Below are positions 11,561 to 55,460 of a stretch of 64,000 nt of DNA, piece after piece. The notes under the pieces are model-generated. The model did not search any database. It was not told where the DNA came from and worked only from the letters and a program-made list of their open reading frames with translations. Both the position numbers and the translations under genes were made by a program. The stretch comes from Vineibacter terrae (lineage in GTDB: Bacteria > Pseudomonadota > Alphaproteobacteria > Reyranellales > Reyranellaceae). Within the stretch, counting starts at the first letter, position 1, and each line of letters begins with the position of its first letter. Location of the stretch: contig NZ_VDUZ01000012.1 of NCBI RefSeq assembly GCF_008039615.1, forward strand, positions 1 through 64,000. Reading direction: 5' to 3'.

Positions 11561-12172
11561 ATGACCGCCACGCTCCACCGCCGCGACGTGGTCAAGGCGC
11601 TGATGCAGGATCCGACCGACGATCTGCTGGTGATCGCCGGCCTGGGCCAGTGCACCTGGGACATCACCGCCGCCGGCGACCGGCCGCAGAACCTGCCACT
11701 CTGGGGCGGCATGGGCGGCACGGTGATGATCGGCCTGGGCCTGGCGCTGGCGCAACCGCGCAAGCGGGTGCTGGTGATAACCGGTGACGGCGACATGCTG
11801 ATGGGCCTGGGCTCGCTGGCCACGGTGGCGGCGCAGCGTTCGGCCAACCTCGCCATCGTGGTGCTCGACAACGAGAAGTTCGGTGAGACCGGCAACCAGG
11901 CGACGCACACTGCGCCGGTGGCCGCCGGGCCGAGCGATCGCGGCGCCGGCACCGACCTCACGGCCGTGGCGCGGGGCTGCGGCATCGCCGACTGCGCCAC
12001 CGTGACGGCAGAGGCCGAGGTGGCGCAGCTGGTCAGGGACGCGCGCGCCAAGGCGGGGCCGATCTTCCGCACCGTCAAGGTGATGGTCGAGACGTTGCCG
12101 GCCGCCATGCCGCCCAAGGACGGCGCCCATCTGAAGGACCGCTTCCGCCAGGCCGTGCTGGGCGCGGCCTGA
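11561..12172 (+). CDS. thiamine-pyrophosphate decarboxylase, beta (PP-domain) subunit
   Basis: This 203-aa protein is the TPP pyrophosphate-binding half. The Mg-TPP motif starts VLVITGDGDMLMGLGSLATV and ends in LAIVVLDN (GDG...N pattern). PLWGGMGGTVMIGLGLALAQ is the preceding conserved loop. It closely resembles ComE-type sulfopyruvate decarboxylase beta and related phosphonopyruvate decarboxylases. It is coupled to the alpha gene by a 1-base gap. The pair sits alone between hemJ and a divergent AT-rich gap. Confidence 0.82.
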   Translation: MTATLHRRDVVKALMQDPTDDLLVIAGLGQCTWDITAAGDRPQNLPLWGGMGGTVMIGLGLALAQPRKRVLVITGDGDMLMGLGSLATVAAQRSANLAIVVLDNEKFGETGNQATHTAPVAAGPSDRGAGTDLTAVARGCGIADCATVTAEAEVAQLVRDARAKAGPIFRTVKVMVETLPAAMPPKDGAHLKDRFRQAVLGAA

Positions 12173-12363
12173 CCTCCGGCTGTTTATTTGCGGCGCCGCC
12201 TTTCGTTCCGTTGCCGGCGCGACGGGCGATGCGCATATGGGCTGAACGCCTGTGGGCTTGGCTGGTATTTTCCGTATTTTGCGACGTTTGCGTCACGGGG
12301 TTTTTGCGGGTTGTTTTTGATCGATAAGCAATTTCAATAACTTAGCTTCTTGGGGCGGCGTCC
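12173..12363. other. AT-rich intergenic region before MFS gene
   Basis: These ~190 bases contain several T-rich runs (GGGGTTTTTGCGGGTTGTTTT) and are visibly lower in GC than their flanks. A short GCGGCGCCGC hairpin followed by CTTT lies just after the TPP operon and could be a weak terminator. The T-rich part probably carries the promoter of the MFS gene, but no convincing -35/-10 pair was found. Confidence 0.4.
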
Positions 12364-13539
12364 GTGTCCCCGACCGTCACCCTGCATCTGCTGACCCTGG
12401 CGCGGGCCCTGCGGGCCTTCGCCGACGGGCTGGTGAGCGTGCTGCTGCCGCTGTATCTGCTGCGGCTGGGCTACGACGCCTTCGATGTCGGCATGATCGC
12501 CACGGCCACCATGCTGGGCTCGGCGCTGCTGACGCTGGCGGTCGGCCTGTGGTCGGCGCGTCTGCCGCGCCACGCCGTGCTGCTGGCCGGCAGCGGGCTG
12601 ATGGTGGCGACCGGGCTCGCCTTCTTCAGCCTCGAGGCCTTCTGGGCGCTGCTGCTGGCGGCCGTGATCGGCACGCTCAACCCGTCGGTTGGCGATGTCA
12701 GCCTGTTCCTGCCGGCCGAGCAGGCGCGCATGGCCGACCTGGCGGCGCCGGAGCGGCGCACGACGGTGTTCGCGCGCTACAGCCTGTTCGCGAGCCTGGC
12801 GGGCGCCGCCGGCACCGGCGCGGCGGAGCTGTTCGACCGGCTGGCCTGGCCGCCGGCCACGGCCTTCCTCAGCTATGTCGTGGCCGGCCTGGCGCTGGCG
12901 CTGATCTATGCCGTGTCCATGCCGCGCGCCGAGCCGATGGCCGAGGCGCCGCGGGCCGGGCTGTCGCCGCAGACGCGGCGTCCGATCCTGGTGCTGACGG
13001 CGTTGTTCTGCATCGATGCCTTCGGCGGCGGCTTCGTGCTGCAGTCGTTGATCGCGCTGTGGCTCTACGACCGCTTCGGCTTCTCCGTCACCGACGCCAG
13101 CCGCACGCTGTTCGTGATGAGCATGCTGGGCGCCTTCTCCCATCTTGCCGCGCCCTGGGTGGCGCGCCGTATCGGGCTGGTGAACACCATGGTGTTCACG
13201 CACCTGCCGGCCAACCTCTTCCTGCTGCTGGCACCGTTCGCGCCCAGCCTCGAGGTCGCGCTGGTGCTGCTGTTCCTGCGCAGCGCGCTCTCGTCGATGG
13301 ACGTGGCGCCGCGCACGGCGCTGATCCTGTCGCTGGTGCCGCCGGCCGAGCGCGCCGCCGCGACCAGTGTGACGGCCGTGCCGCGGGCCCTGGCGGCGGC
13401 CGGCGCGCCGATCATCGCCGGCTGGCTGCTGGCGTCGTCGCCCTTCGGCTGGGCCGTCGTGGTGGGCGGCGCGCTGAAGGCCAGCTACGATATCCTGCTG
13501 CTGCTCGTCGGGAGGCGGCTCGCGCGTGAACGCCCATAG
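12364..13539 (+). CDS. MFS transporter
   Basis: This 391-aa membrane protein has the alternating hydrophobic helices of a 12-helix major facilitator. The N-terminal half begins LHLLTLARALRAFADGLVSV and the first inter-helix loop carries LWSARLPRH. The second half starts after a polar loop near residue 200 (SPQTRRPILVLTALF). The GTG start was taken because the family homology begins there. The substrate is not evident. A CMD-like gene follows with the AGGAG of its ribosome site overlapping this stop, so the two are co-transcribed. Confidence 0.85.
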   Translation: MSPTVTLHLLTLARALRAFADGLVSVLLPLYLLRLGYDAFDVGMIATATMLGSALLTLAVGLWSARLPRHAVLLAGSGLMVATGLAFFSLEAFWALLLAAVIGTLNPSVGDVSLFLPAEQARMADLAAPERRTTVFARYSLFASLAGAAGTGAAELFDRLAWPPATAFLSYVVAGLALALIYAVSMPRAEPMAEAPRAGLSPQTRRPILVLTALFCIDAFGGGFVLQSLIALWLYDRFGFSVTDASRTLFVMSMLGAFSHLAAPWVARRIGLVNTMVFTHLPANLFLLLAPFAPSLEVALVLLFLRSALSSMDVAPRTALILSLVPPAERAAATSVTAVPRALAAAGAPIIAGWLLASSPFGWAVVVGGALKASYDILLLLVGRRLARERP

Positions 13540-13548
13540 GAGATGATG

Positions 13549-13974
13549 ATGGCCAAGTCGAAGGTGAAGCCCCAGTCCAAGCCAAAGCCCAAGCCTGCCA
13601 ATCCGAAGGTGTTCAAAAAGGGCCTGGAGATCCGCAAGGCGGTGCTGGGCAAGGAGTATGTCGAGAACTCTCTGGCCAATGCCGACGACTTCATGATGGC
13701 CTTCCAGGAAATCACCACCGAGTATTGCTGGGGCTATGTCTGGGGCCGCGACGGCTTGCCCAAGAAGACGCGCAGCATGCTGAACCTCGCCATGCTGGCG
13801 GCGCTCAACCGCGGCCCCGAGCTCAAGCTGCATATCAACGGCGCGCTGACCAACGGCGTCACCAAGGAGGAGATGAAGGAGATCTTCCTGCAGGTCGGCA
13901 TCTATTGCGGCATCCCGGCCTGCCTCGACGCCTTCAAGACGGCGAAGGACGTGTTCAAGGAGCGCGGCGTCTAG
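13549..13974 (+). CDS. carboxymuconolactone decarboxylase-family protein
   Basis: The 141-aa protein has a Lys/Pro-rich N-terminal tail (SKVKPQSKPKPKPANPK) and a CMD domain: YVWGRDGLPKKTRSMLNLAM, LAALNR, and the ALTNGVTKEEMKEIFLQVGIY helix. The AhpD-type CxxC pair is absent, so it is more like PcaC or gamma-carboxymuconolactone decarboxylase than a peroxidase partner. Three consecutive ATGs occur; the third has AGGAG at a 6-base spacing and was chosen. Real substrate unknown. Confidence 0.85.
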   Translation: MAKSKVKPQSKPKPKPANPKVFKKGLEIRKAVLGKEYVENSLANADDFMMAFQEITTEYCWGYVWGRDGLPKKTRSMLNLAMLAALNRGPELKLHINGALTNGVTKEEMKEIFLQVGIYCGIPACLDAFKTAKDVFKERGV

Positions 13975-13996
13975 GATCCGGCCGATTGCGGCGCCG

Positions 13997-14056
13997 ATGG
14001 CGCACGACATCGTGATCCGCGCCGCCGCGGTCGACGAGGCCGCGGCTATGCCTTGA
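13997..14056 (+). pseudogene. truncated N-terminus resembling a GNAT acetyltransferase
   Basis: An ATG opens a 19-codon frame, MAHDIVIRAAAVDEAAAMP, then TGA. The IVIRAAAVDEAAAM pattern is the usual first strand and helix of GNAT acetyltransferases. The frame ends where the convergent glutathione S-transferase gene begins, and its stop overlaps that gene's stop codon region. It looks like the stub left by a deletion. The evidence is short and by eye. Confidence 0.35.
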
Positions 14057-14669
14057 GGCGTGCCGCGTACTCGGCCTCGATCTTCATCGTACGCTGCAGC
14101 GCCGGACGCGCCTCCAGGCGCGCGACATAGGCGCCGAGCTCGGGACGTGCCGGCAACAGCTTGTTGGCGAGGCAGAAACGCACCATCGAGCCCAGCACGA
14201 CGTCGGCGGCGGTGAACTGCTTTCCCAGTAGGTACGGGCCGCCGCGCACGGCGCCGGCGAGAGTCTCGATGACCGTCTCGTAGCTGCCCCAGCTGGTCTG
14301 GACGGATGGCACCGGCCACTTGTTCGTCTGCACCATCACGGCCGGCTCGACATTGCTTGCGGCGTAGAACAGCCAGGTCAGGTACGACGCGCGCTCGGGC
14401 GCGTCGGTGGCCGGCGCCAGTCCGGCACCGGGGAAGCGGTCGGCGAGGTAGGCGCAGATCGCCGCCGAATCGCGGATGATGTGCTCGCCGTCGCGCAGTG
14501 TCGGCACCTTTCCTGTCGGATTGATCGCGAGGTAGGCCGGGTTTCTCTGCTCGCCCTTGTGGGTGTCGATCAGCCGCAGGGCATAGGGCTCGTCCAGCTC
14601 CTCCAGCATCCAGAGCCCGCGTGATGCGCGGGTGAACGGCGAATAGTAGAGCGTCAGCGGCCGAGCCAT
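14046..14669 (-). CDS. glutathione S-transferase family protein
   Basis: The 207-aa protein has the two-domain GST layout. The thioredoxin-like N-terminal domain contains LYYSPFTRASRGLWMLEEL, the cis-Pro motif NPTGKVPTL and the glutathione gamma-Glu contact RDSAAICAYLADRFP. The all-helical C-terminal domain includes GPYLLGKQFTAADVVLGSMV (N-capping box). A Ser or Tyr near residue 9-10 is the likely catalytic residue. The start at MARPLTL matches the family; an upstream extension does not. It is divergent from the large cyclase gene. Confidence 0.92.
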   Translation of the reverse strand: MARPLTLYYSPFTRASRGLWMLEELDEPYALRLIDTHKGEQRNPAYLAINPTGKVPTLRDGEHIIRDSAAICAYLADRFPGAGLAPATDAPERASYLTWLFYAASNVEPAVMVQTNKWPVPSVQTSWGSYETVIETLAGAVRGGPYLLGKQFTAADVVLGSMVRFCLANKLLPARPELGAYVARLEARPALQRTMKIEAEYAARLKA

Positions 14670-14825
14670 GACGGGTCGCTCTCTCGATCGGTGGGATGGG
14701 CCGGGATTAAGCATGGCGATCGTGACGGAAGTGTGGGTGCATCCGGCCCGTGGAAAACGGCTTGACGGAACGCGGATCGCGGCGCGTTGTGGCGGCATGG
14801 GGCAACGTCTGCGGGGTATCGCCCG

Positions 14826-17800
14826 ATGGATGTGTCGGCGTGGCTCGAGCAGCTCGGACTTGGGGAATACGCAGCCGCGTTCGCGGCCAACCATGTCGAC
14901 GCCGCCACCTTGCATCAGCTCACGGCCGACGATTTGCGCGAGATCGGTGTCGGCTCGGTCGGCCATCGACGACGGCTGCTCGATGCCATCGCGCAGCTCA
15001 AGGCTGCGGCGCCGACGGCCGAGGCCGCAACCGCGCTCGATACGGAGCGCCGGCCGGTGGCGGTGCTGTTCGCCGATCTCTGCGGCTTCACGGCGCTATC
15101 GCGTGATCTGCCCGATGAACGCCTGCACGCCCTGCTGGACGGGTACCTGACAGCCGCTGACACGATCGTGAAGCGTCACGGCGGCATGGTCGACAAGCAT
15201 ATCGGCGACGCCGTGATGGCCTTGTTCGGCGCGCCGCTGGCGCATGACGATGATGTCGTGCGCGCCGTGCGCGCGGCCCTGGAGCTGCGTGCCCGGATGC
15301 CCGCGCTGTCGGGCGAGCTGGGCCGCGAGCTTGCGATGCATGCCGGCCTCACCGTCGGCGAGGTGATCGTCGGCGGCTCCGGCGGCGGCTACACCGCGGT
15401 CGGCGAGACCGTGAACCTGGCGGCACGGCTCACGGCCCTGGCCCCGGCCGGCGAGATCTTCGTGTCGGAGCCGGTACGGCGCACGTTGACGGGCCGGGCG
15501 ATGTTCGAGGCCCGCGGCCGCCATGCGCTGAAGGGCTTCGCCGAACCCGTCGATGTCTGGCGGCTGTCAGGGCTTGTCGACCGCGATGCGGCGGAACCGA
15601 CGCCGTTCGTCGGTCGCGGCGCCGAGCTGGCCCAGATCGCGGCGCTGGTCGAGAGCTGCCGTGCGCGATGCGCCGGCGCGGTGATCTACGTGCGCGGCGA
15701 GCCGGGGATCGGCAAGAGCCGTCTGGTCGGCGAGACCCGCGCCCTGGCGGTGGCATCCGGCATCGCCTGCCATGTCTGCCACGTCCTGGATTTCGGTGCC
15801 GGCCATGAGCGCGATCCGCTGCGGCGGCTCGCCGACAGCCTGCTCGGGCTGGTGCCGGACTCGGTGCCGGCGGTACGTGCCGCAGCCGTGGCCGGGGTGG
15901 TCGCCGCTGCTGCCGTCGAGCCGCGCCTGGAAGCCTTCCTTCGGGAGCTTGCCGAAGCGCCGCTGACGCCGGGCCTGCGCGGCCTGATCGACGCCTCCGA
16001 CGAAGCCAGCCGCCGTGCCGGCCGCCACGAGGCGATGGCGATGCTCGTCGAGCGGGCGCTGGCCGATTCGCCTCTGCTGCTCGTGGTCGAGGACCTCCAT
16101 TGGGCCGACGCGGCGCTGGTCGAGGCGCTGCTGCGCGTGTCGCGCATCGCCACCGACCGGCCGCTGATCCTGGCGCTGACCTCGCGACCCGAGAACGAGC
16201 GCCTGTACGAGGCGCTGCGCCTGCAGCCCGGCGGCGCACCGCTGGCCACGATCGATCTGGGGCCGCTGCGGGCGCAGGATGCGGTTGCGATCGTCGGCCA
16301 TGTGGCGCGCCTGCCCGAGGCGATCCAGCAGCGATGCATCGAACGCGCCGGCGGCAATCCCTTGTTCCTGGAGCAGCTTCTGCGCAACGCCGCCGAAGTG
16401 GCCGGCGAGCTGCCGCCGTCGCTGCGCGGGCTGATCGTGGCGCGGGTCGATCGGCTGGGCGCGGCCGATCGGGCTGCGATCCATGCCGCCGCCGTGCTGG
16501 GCCAGCGCTTCGATATCGCGGCGCTGCGGGCTGTCGTCGTCAACCCGGCCTATGTCGCGGATCGGCTGCTGCAGGCCGGCCTCCTGCGCGCCGACGGCAT
16601 GGAACTGGTGTTCGCCCATGCGCTGATCTGCGAGGCGGTGCAGCGCTCGCTGCTGGCCCAGCCGCGCCGCGTGCTGCACGGCCGCGCCGCGGCCTGGTTC
16701 GCCGGCCGTGATCCCATCCTGCGGGCTTCGCATCTCGATCGCGCCGAATCGCCCGAGGCGGCCGATGCCTACCGTGTCGCGGCGGAGGATCGGCTGCAGC
16801 GCTATCGTCCGGCCGAGGCGCTGCCCCTGGCCGCGCGCGGCCTGGAGCTGGCGGCGGAGCCGGCCAGCCGCGCTGCGCTGCTGCTGCTCAAGGGCGACGT
16901 GCTGTTGGACGGTGGACGTGCGCGGGAGGCGCTGGCCGCCTATCAGGAGATGCTGCAGGTCGGCGGTGATGACCGCAGCCGCAGCCTGGCGCTTCTGGGC
17001 AGCGCCTCGGCGCGTCGCATCCTCGATGACCTGCCGACGGCGCTCGACGATGTCGCGGCGGCGCAGGGATTGGCTGAGAAGGGCGGCTGGCTCGATATCC
17101 AGGCGCGCTGCCGGTTCACCCGCGGCAATCTCTGCTTCCCGCAAGGACGGGTCGAGGAATGCCTGGTCGAGCATGAGGCGGCGTTGGACTTGGCCGAGCG
17201 CGCGGGCAGCGCCGAAGCCAAGGCGCGGGCGCTGGGCGGGCTGGGTGATGCCGAGTACGCGCGCGGCCGGCTGGTCACCTGCGGCGCCCATTTCCAGCGC
17301 TGCGTCGAGGAAAGCCGCCGCATCGGCCTGGGCCGGGTCGAGGTGTCCAACCTGCCGATGTATGCCCACACGCTGCTCTTCGCGTTGCGGCTGGATGAAG
17401 CCATCGCGGTGGCCCGCGAAAGCGTGGCGCTGGCGGTCGCTGTCGGCCAGAAGCGGGCCGAGATGATCGCCAACCATGCCTGTGTCGGCGCCCTTCTCGA
17501 GCTCGCCGGCTACGACGAGGCGCGGCTGCGGCTGCAGCGTTGCCGCGCGATCGTGAAGGAGCTGGAAGCCTGGCGCTTCGAGCCTGAGAATCTCGCCTTC
17601 CTTGCCGACGTCGAGCTGGCGGAGGGCCGGCATGACGTCGCGCGCTCCCTTGTCGGCGAGGGCCTGGTCCTGGCGCGCAAGACGGGCATGGCCTACTGGG
17701 GCCCGGCCCTGCTGGCCTTCAACGCCCGGCTCAGCGACCAGGCCGATGCACGCGATGCGCTGGTCGGCGAATGCGAGACGCTGCTGGGCGGCAACGTCCT

Positions 17801-51210: not shown

Positions 51211-52074
51211 CTAGCGCGCGGTCACCGGCGGCCGATGCTCGATGCCGTACCGCGCGTAGATGTCGCGAATGGTCCCGTCGGCCAGCATGCGCTGGACCGC
51301 GGCATCGATCTTCTGGCCGAGCAGGGCGTCGGCGCCGCGCATGCCGACCGCGATATTCCAGGCCAGCTCCGGCTCCTGCTCGTAGGCATGGACGAGCCGC
51401 ACGGCGCGCCCTGGGTTCTTGAGGTTGAAGTAGCCGGCGCTGGCCGGCGATATCGCCGCCGCGTCGATCGTGCCTTCTGCCAGGGCTTCGATCATCTCAT
51501 CCTCGAAGCCATAGGGTGTCGTGCGCAGGCCGCGCTGGCCGAGGACCATCTGAGCCAGGGAGCCGACCTGCACGCCAACGCGCCTGTCGCGGCCCAGCTC
51601 GCGGAAGGACGCGAGGCCATCGGTGCCGGCCGGCAGAGCCAGCGCGACACCGCTGTGGTGATACGGCCTGGAGATCCGGATGCGGCTCTCGGCCTGGACG
51701 TCCCGGTTCACGATCGTATCGAGGACGATGTCGCATTCGGCGGAACGGTATTGGACCGGGCTGACCACCCAGGCGACGTCGAGGCTGACGCCGAGATGGC
51801 GCGCAAGCGCACGGGCCATCTCGATCTGAAAGCCGGGCGGACTGTCCTTGCGGCTGGCGAACGGCAGCGCGTTGGGATGCGCGCACAGGCTGATGACGCC
51901 GCGTCCTTCGATCGCGGCCAGGGACCGCGGGACGGCTGGCGGGACGATACAGACGGCCGCCACGGCGAACAGCGCAACGCCCAGGGCCGCGCCGTAGCCG
52001 ATGCCGCGACGCCGCGCCTCAGGGCGTATCGGGCAGGGCGCGAATGTAGGAGATGATCGCCTGGATCTGCTCAT
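51211..52074 (-). CDS. periplasmic binding protein of PQQ-dehydrogenase cluster (XoxJ/MoxJ-like)
   Basis: The protein resembles family 3 solute-binding proteins (ISLCAHPNALPFASRKDSPP, FQIEMARALARHLGVSLDVA, ECDIVLDTIVNRD, EGTIDAAAISPASAGYF). A hydrophobic N-terminal segment (GYGAALGVALFAVAAVCIVP) is its signal peptide. The start is unclear: ATG 52074 overlaps the cytochrome gene by 56 bases and has no ribosome site, and no better start is seen before the signal. It follows the cytochrome c of the quinoprotein, as XoxJ follows XoxG in lanthanide methanol dehydrogenase operons. XoxJ is thought to assist maturation of the dehydrogenase. Confidence 0.78.
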   Translation of the reverse strand: MSRSRRSSPTFAPCPIRPEARRRGIGYGAALGVALFAVAAVCIVPPAVPRSLAAIEGRGVISLCAHPNALPFASRKDSPPGFQIEMARALARHLGVSLDVAWVVSPVQYRSAECDIVLDTIVNRDVQAESRIRISRPYHHSGVALALPAGTDGLASFRELGRDRRVGVQVGSLAQMVLGQRGLRTTPYGFEDEMIEALAEGTIDAAAISPASAGYFNLKNPGRAVRLVHAYEQEPELAWNIAVGMRGADALLGQKIDAAVQRMLADGTIRDIYARYGIEHRPPVTAR

Positions 52075-52369
52075 CGTTGAAGCTCTTGCCGAAGGCCGGC
52101 ATGCCGGGCGGCTTTCCTTGCTTGATCCGCGTGACCATGAAAGCGTCGGACTTGTCGGTGCCGGCAAGCTTCGGCCCGCGGCCCTGCTTGCGGCCGCCGC
52201 CCTCATGGCACCAGCCGCACGTGGTCGCGAACAGCTTGGCCACATCCATCTTGCCGGCCTGGCCCTGTTCCTGGGTGGCAGGCGGTGAACTCTGCCCGTA
52301 GGCAGCGGCGGCAACCAGTGCGATCGCCATGCTCAAGCCGGCACGCGGCAGAAGCCAGTGTCGATTCAT
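52019..52369 (-). CDS. cytochrome c, electron acceptor of the quinoprotein
   Basis: This 116-aa protein has a signal peptide (HWLLPRAGLSMAIALVAAAA) and a single haem c site CGWCH (FATTCGWCHEGGG). The methionine ligand is probably in PPGMPAFGKSF. Its size and site resemble the class I cytochromes that accept electrons from PQQ alcohol dehydrogenases (XoxG-like). It starts 75 bases after the quinoprotein gene and is followed by the binding-protein gene. Start ATG chosen at the signal peptide; the upstream open frame lacks homology. Confidence 0.85.
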   Translation of the reverse strand: MNRHWLLPRAGLSMAIALVAAAAYGQSSPPATQEQGQAGKMDVAKLFATTCGWCHEGGGRKQGRGPKLAGTDKSDAFMVTRIKQGKPPGMPAFGKSFNDEQIQAIISYIRALPDTP

Positions 52370-52444
52370 GATGCGATTGGTACCTGCTGGATACGGCCAC
52401 GCACGGGCGGGCCGATCGGCCCGCCCGTCGAAGGTCAATGCTTC

Positions 52445-54154
52445 CTACGGCAGCGCGAACACGACGAGCGTGCCGGTATCAGTCGCCATGCTCTTGTACG
52501 GCTCGCCGAACAGTGCTCCGTAGCCTTCGCCCACCAGCGAGTTCCAGCCGGTCATGACTGCAACGTACTGCTTGCCGCCGGCCCGGTAGCTGATGATGCC
52601 GCCGTTGTGTCCGACGCCGTTGTTGTGCGACCACAGCTTGTCGCCCGTGGTGGCATTGTAGGCCGTCAGCACGCCGCGCGCGTCGGGCACGAACACGAGG
52701 TTGCCGCCGGTGGAAAGCAGGCTGGCCAGCGGCGGCTCGTCGTACTTGACCTCCCACTTCTTTTCGCCGGTCACCGGGTCGCGCGCGCTCACATGGCCGT
52801 GCGCCTTGCCGCCTACGGGGTTGGTGAAGGTGAAGTCGGCGCCGATGTTGAGCTGCGCCATGGGCTCGAGGATCGGCGTCGTCTTGACGATCTTGAGGTC
52901 CATGCACCATTCCTGACCGACCTTGTAGTACAGCCCGGTCTGCGGATTGTAGGCGCCCGAGTTCCAGCTGATGCCGCCGGCAATCGCGGGACAGAGGTTC
53001 TTGTGCTCACCTTCGACCATGTCGCGGCGACCGATCAGCTCGCCGGTCTTGGGGTCGATGCTCTTGACGAAGTTGATGTTCTGCACCAGCGGCCAGACAT
53101 TCGCGACCTTGCCGTTGCCACGGTCGTACACGAACACGAAACCGCTCTTGTTCGGGTGCACCATGAGATTGCGACCGTCGCGCTCGATCATCAGGAATTC
53201 GCCGACCGAGCTGTCGAAATCCCAGGCGTCATGCGGCAGTTCCTGATGGTAGAACTTCAGCTTCCCGGTATCCGGATCCAGCGCGATCACGGACGTCGTA
53301 TAGAGATTGTCGCCAGGACGCGGCCCCTTCGTCTTCCACTCCGGGCCGGCCCAGTCATACAGCGGCGCCGGGTTGCCGGTGCCCCACCAGACGGAGTTGG
53401 TCTGAGCATCGTACGTGCCGGGCATCCAGCCGCCCCCGCCCCCGGTGCGCCAGGAATCGCCGCCCCACGTTGCCTTGGCTTCCTCGGTTCCGGCGACAGT
53501 GAAGAACTCCCACTTCTTCTCGCCAGTATTGGCGTCGACGCCGAAGATCGGCCCGCGCCACGGCCACTCGCCGCCCTGGGCGCCGATCACCACCTTGTCC
53601 TTCACCAGCAGCGGTGCGCCGGTGAAGCCCACTGTCAGCTTTTTCGAATCGATGAGCTTGGTGTCCCATGCGACCTTGCCGGTCGCCATGTCGAGGGCGA
53701 TGAGGCGCCCGTCCACCGTGCCCACGAACACCTTGCCATGCCCGAGCGCGATGCCCCGGTTGTAGGGTGAATGGGTCTGGGCAGCGACCAGCTCATCGTC
53801 AAGCTTCGGGAAGTACGTCCACTTCACCTGTCCGGTGGCGCCATCCAATGCGAACACACGGCTGTACGAGCCGGAATAGTAGAGCGTTCCGTCCGCTACC
53901 AACGGCATCGATTGCAGGCCGCGGGTGGAGCGGCCGGGCTGATGCATCCAGGCAACCTTGAGCTGCTTGACGTTGCCCGCGTTGATCTGGTCCAGCGGGC
54001 TGAAATGATACGACCGGTAGGTGCCATGATAGGTGAGCCAGTCATCCGGGCTCTCCTTGTTCAGGTCGGCGGCTCCGGCCGGGCCGCCCAACAGGCTGGC
54101 GGCCAGCACAATGCCGGCGGCGAGCATCGATAAGCCTTTATCGTCCTTTGTCAT
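52445..54154 (-). CDS. PQQ-dependent alcohol dehydrogenase, lanthanide-type signature
   Basis: The 569-aa periplasmic quinoprotein has a signal peptide (to ~residue 29) and an eight-bladed beta-propeller with repeated tryptophan motifs (DGATGQVKWTY, DMATGKVAWDT). The metal ligand positions of XoxF/ExaF are filled: E196 (GGEWPWRG), N261 (GTGNPAPL), D312 and the extra D314 (AWDFDS), the Asp-x-Asp that marks lanthanide enzymes. The vicinal Cys-Cys pair over PQQ is missing: the region reads AAQTHSPYNRG. GGGAGGAAAG precedes the ATG. With the cytochrome and binding protein it forms a three-gene operon. Substrate may be an alcohol. Confidence 0.9.
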   Translation of the reverse strand: MTKDDKGLSMLAAGIVLAASLLGGPAGAADLNKESPDDWLTYHGTYRSYHFSPLDQINAGNVKQLKVAWMHQPGRSTRGLQSMPLVADGTLYYSGSYSRVFALDGATGQVKWTYFPKLDDELVAAQTHSPYNRGIALGHGKVFVGTVDGRLIALDMATGKVAWDTKLIDSKKLTVGFTGAPLLVKDKVVIGAQGGEWPWRGPIFGVDANTGEKKWEFFTVAGTEEAKATWGGDSWRTGGGGGWMPGTYDAQTNSVWWGTGNPAPLYDWAGPEWKTKGPRPGDNLYTTSVIALDPDTGKLKFYHQELPHDAWDFDSSVGEFLMIERDGRNLMVHPNKSGFVFVYDRGNGKVANVWPLVQNINFVKSIDPKTGELIGRRDMVEGEHKNLCPAIAGGISWNSGAYNPQTGLYYKVGQEWCMDLKIVKTTPILEPMAQLNIGADFTFTNPVGGKAHGHVSARDPVTGEKKWEVKYDEPPLASLLSTGGNLVFVPDARGVLTAYNATTGDKLWSHNNGVGHNGGIISYRAGGKQYVAVMTGWNSLVGEGYGALFGEPYKSMATDTGTLVVFALP

Positions 54155-54633: not shown

Positions 54634-55251
54634 TCATGCGTGTGAAACGGCGAAGCTGCGCAGCACCAGGCGCACCAGGTTCGCCTGGCGGCGGGTGCCG
54701 GTCTTGTCCAGCGCGCGCTTGAGGTACTCGCGCGCGCTGGACGTTCCGATGCCCAGCGTGCTGGCGGCCTGTGTGAGATCGGCGCCGCGCGACAGCAGCG
54801 CGGCGATCGAGGCCTCGCGCGGCGTGAGGCCGTAGGCCGTGCCCAGGCCCTGCGTGTCGATGCGCAGCGGCGCCTCGGGATCGACAATGAACAATGCTGT
54901 GCACGGCGCGTCGGGACGTCCGTCCTCGGCCAGCCTGCCGAGGGGAATGATGGTCACGACCAGCGACGCGAGTCCCGATGGACGCGACAGATATACCCGC
55001 CGCGCCTCCGTGTCGGCGGTACCCCCCGCTGTGGCGATCGCCGCATGCAAGGTTCGACCATCGGCCAGGAACGAGGCTGCAACGCCGTTCTGGTCGGCCC
55101 TCAGTCCATCGCCGCGTGCCACGATCCTCGCGGCGCGGGCATTGATGAAGCTTGGGCGTCCCGCCACGTCGAGCAGGACGACGCCAACGTCCAGGTGCTC
55201 GAGGATGGCACCATAGGTCTTGCGGATGAGGTCGAAGGCGATGCGGGTCAT
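54634..55251 (-). CDS. PAS-LuxR transcriptional regulator
   Basis: The 205-aa protein has a PAS-like sensor (HLDVGVVLLDVAGRPSFINA, ~residues 19-110) and a C-terminal LuxR helix-turn-helix (GLTPREASIAALLSRG, TQAASTLGIGTSSAREYL). There is no receiver domain. Upstream of the quinoprotein operon on the same strand, it is a candidate regulator of it; LuxR proteins such as ErbR and ExaE control PQQ alcohol dehydrogenases in pseudomonads. AGAGGACAGCC lies upstream of the ATG. Divergent from a LysR gene. Confidence 0.85.
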   Translation of the reverse strand: MTRIAFDLIRKTYGAILEHLDVGVVLLDVAGRPSFINARAARIVARGDGLRADQNGVAASFLADGRTLHAAIATAGGTADTEARRVYLSRPSGLASLVVTIIPLGRLAEDGRPDAPCTALFIVDPEAPLRIDTQGLGTAYGLTPREASIAALLSRGADLTQAASTLGIGTSSAREYLKRALDKTGTRRQANLVRLVLRSFAVSHA

Positions 55252-55357
55252 GAGGGCTGTCCTCTGGCTGGAATCGGGCGCTGTGGGCGCTGGCTGACGG
55301 TTGGCTGACAGGCAGCCGTCGATTCCTGAACACGCGATGCAGTTTACTCTTCCACAA

Positions 55358-55379
55358 ATAGCAACATTTTTGCTATAAT
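55358..55379 (+). promoter_or_regulatory. operator-like inverted repeat overlapping a TATAAT box
   Basis: The 7-base inverted repeat ATAGCAA-N5-TTGCTAT lies at 55358-55376 and overlaps a perfect TATAAT at 55374-55379, with TCCACA (55351-55356) 17 bases upstream as a -35. It is 82 bases before the LysR gene and in the divergent gap with the LuxR gene. The arrangement suits a repressor or an autoregulating LysR protein. Confidence 0.6.
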
Positions 55380-55460
55380 TGCCAAGTAATACCAACGGTC
55401 GCCGCAAGACCGGTCAAGCGCGCTCGTTTTCGCTGATGGTTCGATAAGGAATTCCTTGGC

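Follow-up and report, generated by a model that had tools for sequence, protein, structure and literature searches.

The locus described here raises the question of whether a PQQ-dependent alcohol dehydrogenase can carry the metal ligands of a lanthanide enzyme, lack the vicinal disulfide of its relatives and still be served by a cytochrome c. What is known of the role of the vicinal disulfide comes largely from a single calcium enzyme (Mennenga 2009, as cited by PMC12997753 and PMC8546591). An enzyme with lanthanide-type ligands, no disulfide and a linked cytochrome would thus be a natural, direct test of that role. The interest of the locus lies in this natural absence of the disulfide in an enzyme that looks cytochrome c-coupled, and not in a D-x-D motif without Cys-Cys as such. 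The stretch of DNA analysed, termed the window, is 64,000 nucleotides long. The sequence evidence favours, with a probability of about 0.6, a periplasmic soluble PQQ alcohol dehydrogenase (ADH), most likely lanthanide-dependent, that forms a three-gene unit with its own cytochrome c and a XoxJ/MoxJ-like protein (Table 1).

The product of the first gene of this unit is a PQQ beta-propeller dehydrogenase of 569 amino acids with a signal peptide. The initial annotation had reported the open reading frame and left its strand unstated; the frame is real and is read from the minus strand. A gene on the plus strand was considered and rejected, as the overlapping plus-strand frame is antisense to the conserved minus-strand gene. 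The ATG at 54154 is preceded by a strong Shine-Dalgarno sequence, AGGGGAGGAA. Comparison with the closest relative (87% identical) reveals 47, 39 and 186 differences at codon positions 1, 2 and 3, respectively; the excess at third positions indicates that the gene is coding and under purifying selection.

Table 1. Coordinates of the genes and sequence motifs of the dehydrogenase unit in the window.
Feature	Position	Strand	Evidence
PQQ-dependent alcohol dehydrogenase	52445..54154	minus	translation; Pfam PQQ PF01011 2.4e-68; alignments; conservation in 80 relatives
Codons Q126-G134, QTHSPYNRG (Cys-Cys segment of other PQQ-ADHs)	53753..53779	minus	from reading frame
Codons D312-F313-D314, D-x-D metal motif	53213..53221	minus	from reading frame
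c-type cytochrome, signal peptide, one haem site (CGWCH)	52019..52369	minus	Pfam Cytochrome_CBB3 2.8e-14
Periplasmic binding protein, XoxJ/MoxJ-related	51211..52074	minus	TIGR03871 2.4e-18 (below cut-off); PDB 6onp XoxJ 5.5e-8

The protein matches TIGR03075, the PQQ methanol/ethanol dehydrogenase family, over its full length with 474.2 bits, narrowly under the curated cut-off of 480.05. Family features present are the eight-bladed PQQ propeller fold, the catalytic Asp and the metal Glu and Asn (PF01011; D312, E196 and N261 aligned); the vicinal Cys-Cys ring above PQQ is absent. The match to the membrane glucose dehydrogenase family TIGR03074 is 160 bits against a cut-off of 832.65, and the N-terminus consists of a signal peptide only. 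Among solved structures the best sequence match is PedH (6zcv, 1e-92), and the Comamonas QH-EDH is also among the best.

The initial annotation placed the metal ligands at E196, N261, D312 and D314. All four are where it put them, and in alignments they coincide with the residues that bind the metal in XoxF1 (6oc5) and PedH (6zcv); the hallmark of lanthanide PQQ-ADHs, the extra Asp of D-x-D (D312-F-D314) together with the Glu and Asn ligands, is present. The missing Cys pair, also pointed out there, is borne out by alignment. The segment before NRG reads AAQTHSPYNRG, and T127-H128 fill both Cys columns of XoxF1, PedH, ExaA and the Comamonas QH-EDH. A search for a Cys pair aligned elsewhere found none: the only cysteines are C388 and C417, which are non-vicinal, and a misaligned pair is therefore rejected. 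Their columns are those of the two separated cysteines of XoxF1 (ICPAALG and HVCMDYE). In the same alignment, L476 replaces a Trp found in XoxF, PedH and ExaA, and K336 stands where the compared enzymes carry Arg; both differences weigh against the favoured reading.

An AlphaFold model of the protein (pLDDT 76.5, pTM 0.83) has as its nearest solved fold the lanthanide enzyme PedH (6zcw, E 5e-44, TM 0.80) and also matches 1h4i and 4mae (TM about 0.8). As confidence is below 50 at residues 310-316 and about 69 at residues 121-130, the model does not give the geometry of the metal site or of H128.

A genome scan yielded 186 encoded relatives, and the conservation counts given here refer to the best 80 of these, which are 67-87% identical to the window protein. 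They are mostly from Bradyrhizobium, with others from Reyranella, Microvirga, Skermanella and Tistlia, Rokubacteria and Acetobacteraceae MAGs and one beta-proteobacterial MAG. QTHSPY, R133, T178, E196, W243, N261, D312, D314, K336, C388 and C417 are invariant in all of the best 80. The invariance of R133, T178, E196, W243, N261, D312, D314 and K336 signifies that the PQQ and metal pocket is kept. QTHSPY lies outside the patterns used to find the relatives and its conservation is therefore no artefact of the search; PHDAWDFD was one of six alternative patterns, and the conservation of D312 and D314 is slightly biased on that account. A sequencing error, or loss of Cys-Cys in a single genome, is rejected because QTHSPY is common to the best 80 relatives.

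Members of the clade were detected in 4 of 399 sampled Pseudomonadota genomes, the window's own genome included. The clade is real, uncommon and under purifying selection. In the literature searched, a soluble ADH clade that is Cys-less and has D-x-D is undescribed, but it may already appear in the trees of Keltjens 2014 or Huang 2019. The clade would bring Bradyrhizobium an enzyme that is likely to use a lanthanide. In one strain of this genus, the function of seven further PQQ dehydrogenases is noted as unknown (PMC12628762).

In sequence and fold the closest known enzyme is PedH/ExaF (type 2b; 6zcv, 6zcw), likewise soluble and periplasmic, with the E/N/D/D ligands; Q81 of the window protein is also common to PedH. 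Identity is only about 35%, however, and PedH has the Cys-Cys pair, is without the C388/C417 pair and belongs to a separate clade. Genes for a XoxJ-like protein, PedG, and a cytochrome, PedF, are described near ped/exaF loci (PMC12997753). XoxF shares the ligand set, an F-G-J type gene arrangement and the non-vicinal Cys pair equivalent to C388/C417, but it has Cys-Cys and is 29-30% identical. Unlike the partners in the XoxF system, the window cytochrome is small and c6/cbb3-like and gives no match to XoxG, and the binding protein is only distantly related to XoxJ.

In a tree built without the columns of the Cys and ligand motifs, the window clade groups with two sister proteins from Skermanella plasmids (support 100), apart from XoxF1, PedH/ExaA and QH-EDH. 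It lies on a branch separate from PedH (SH-aLRT 100), which joins ExaA and other Cys-Cys enzymes; XoxF1 groups with two other sequences of the set (L004 and L097) and not with the window protein (P0001). The Skermanella sisters (L090 and L153) are 48% identical to the window protein and read ESFYASASRG, with D in place of E196 and a D-Y-D motif. Their Cys columns hold F-Y, so a His at this place is not general. The full set of three genes was seen in L090.

The initial annotation held that loss of the cysteines together with the lanthanide signature marks an unusual clade. A conserved clade with both properties does exist, but the combination alone is not unique, as D-x-D without the cysteines recurs in a second clade and in E. 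coli Gcd. The second clade is represented in the host genome itself by another Cys-less D-x-D PQQ dehydrogenase, L002 (contig 3, 1342-3141; FQLHPTNRG and NDSWDWDEV), which is flanked by genes for a Rieske-like and a 2Fe-2S protein and has no adjoining cytochrome c. L002 has relatives in other alphaproteobacteria and in Methylobacterium aquaticum, and at seven loci of its clade, flanks of ~1.4 kb contain no plausible cytochrome gene. As in the window protein, D-x-D, the E and N ligands, a His before NRG and a Cys pair at the 388/417 columns are present; the segment at the Cys-Cys position, in contrast, is three residues shorter and the clade is separate. The best tree needs at least three changes of Cys state, and a single clade of P0001, the Skermanella sisters and L002, implying a joint Cys loss, is not rejected by the AU test (p 0.12).

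E. coli Gcd, a membrane glucose dehydrogenase (GDH), has FQHVTCRG and HDLWDMD, that is, D-x-D without a vicinal Cys pair. It resembles the window protein further in a His just before RG and a Lys at the position of K336. It differs in its N-terminal membrane helices, in the lack of the E196 and N261 ligands and in its deep separate branch. Membrane GDH delivers electrons to quinone, and in the E. coli enzyme His262 stands in for the disulfide next to PQQ. Since Gcd does not have all four ligands and the L002 clade has no adjacent cytochrome gene, two features remain specific to the window clade. Its distinction, as read from sequence, is the complete ligand set, without disulfide and with an invariably linked cytochrome c.

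The choice of metal is where an alternative has most to say. The enzyme and gene unit could be the same with Ca2+ (or Mg2+) as the metal, D314 being tolerated and not a lanthanide ligand; this is unlikely, though a reading to be taken seriously. Ca, Mg, Zn or Sr can each be bound by Gcd, according to one report (PMC11996626), and since its D-x-D functions with Ca, Mg or Zn, this motif by itself is no proof of lanthanide use. In addition, the residue after D-x-D, S315, replaces the Gly of XoxF and PedH in the alignment and matches the Ca-type QH-EDH. Gcd, however, is without the E196 and N261 ligands that are invariant in the window clade, and XoxF, ExaF and PedH, which carry the four-ligand set, are described as lanthanide-dependent (PMC11996626, PMC5487730). 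XoxF and the type 2b ADHs are given as the only biochemically confirmed lanthanide enzymes (PMC11996626). By analogy with them, lanthanide use by the window dehydrogenase is likely.

The arrangement of genes resembles a xoxFGJ operon: dehydrogenase, then c-type cytochrome, then MoxJ/XoxJ-type binding protein. This order, on one strand and with a cytochrome that has a single CxxCH, is found in 80 of 80 loci (best 80 of 186). The triad is also present on the Skermanella plasmid (48% identity) and on a plasmid of Rhodococcus qingshengii (71%). The initial annotation based the unusual clade on the ligands and the Cys loss and overlooked what is more telling, that a cytochrome c gene and a XoxJ-like gene invariably lie next to the dehydrogenase gene. 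In the window, the cytochrome open reading frame reaches 52438, and the start context favours the ATG listed in Table 1; the frame of the binding protein reaches 52314 and its start position is uncertain. Between the dehydrogenase and cytochrome genes (52404..52427, minus strand) lies a perfect 24-base G+C-rich palindrome, CGGGCGGGCCGATCGGCCCGCCCG, possibly a partial terminator or an mRNA stabiliser.

The neighbouring monohaem cytochrome is the proposed electron acceptor of the dehydrogenase. In this scheme PQQ would come from the host, D312 would act as the base in alcohol oxidation at the PQQ-metal centre, and electrons would pass from PQQH2 to this cytochrome without a vicinal disulfide; the XoxJ/MoxJ-like binding protein would serve maturation. 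A cytochrome-linked enzyme that is without the disulfide needs another electron route. In other enzymes the disulfide covers PQQ like a roof, and the invariant QTHSPY segment may take its place here. H128 is a candidate cap because it stands at the second-Cys column, near the position of the His of GDH and L002. From these comparisons we infer PQQ occupancy, lanthanide occupancy, the cytochrome partnership and the role of H128. A further step, put forward tentatively and at somewhat less than even odds, is that the clade represents a lanthanide, cytochrome c-coupled lineage in which a Thr-His cap stands in for an unneeded disulfide, a third lanthanide lineage beside XoxF and ExaF/PedH.

The disulfide might instead be dispensable because electrons bypass the usual cytochrome c route, either with the cytochrome serving another partner or with a quinone or other carrier being reduced. 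Cys-less groups elsewhere are without an adjacent cytochrome, as in L002, or use quinone, as in GDH. In ExaA, the passage of electrons to cytochrome c550 has been linked to the disulfide itself (Mennenga 2009, as cited by PMC12997753 and PMC8546591). The presence of a single-haem cytochrome gene after the ADH gene in all 80 loci (best 80 of 186) and in two plasmid lineages argues against such a bypass and makes it rather improbable. An 'empty' quinoprotein, no longer carrying PQQ or catalysing a reaction and serving in a structural or binding role, is very improbable: the protein matches TIGR04528 (acido-empty-quinoprotein) and has lost the vicinal Cys and one active-site Trp, but the match of 308 bits is far under the cut-off of 650, which places the protein outside group A, the metal ligands, catalytic Asp and PQQ-stacking Trp do not vary among the best 80 of the 186 relatives, and the cytochrome and XoxJ-like protein are retained.

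The periplasmic, probably lanthanide-dependent and cytochrome-linked enzyme fits the host. The genome encodes PqqB as well as a XoxF that carries D-x-D and has XoxJ next to it, and this makes the use of PQQ and lanthanides plausible there. The associated SoxYZ-like protein (TIGR04557) is said to accompany Cys-Cys enzymes (PMC12997753); in the host it is encoded elsewhere in the genome, not beside the triad, and its presence carries no information here because the host has Cys-Cys enzymes too. No lanthanide-uptake genes were seen adjoining the triad.

Outside the triad, neighbours vary by lineage. In the window they are IclR, DHDPS-family and TctC genes, in Rhodococcus an ABC transporter and TctC, and in many Bradyrhizobium hydantoinase A/B and a TRAP transporter. 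With such differences between lineages, the neighbourhood does not indicate the substrate. A possible hint of substrate comes from some 18-25 Bradyrhizobium loci, where genes for hydantoinase A/B and a DctP-DctQ-DctM TRAP transporter lie upstream of the dehydrogenase gene and are co-oriented with it. A probable LuxR-type regulator gene (weak GerE match) is located upstream of the triad in the window, on the same minus strand (54634-55407); its adjacency to the triad is not conserved in other loci.

The Rhodococcus qingshengii triad, at 11887-16132 of plasmid NZ_CP054209.1, is an occurrence in a Gram-positive. It is followed by a truncated fragment of a PqqU-type TonB receptor, a PQQ importer (3e-91), seen in no other locus examined. 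The triad on this plasmid looks like a transfer from a proteobacterium.
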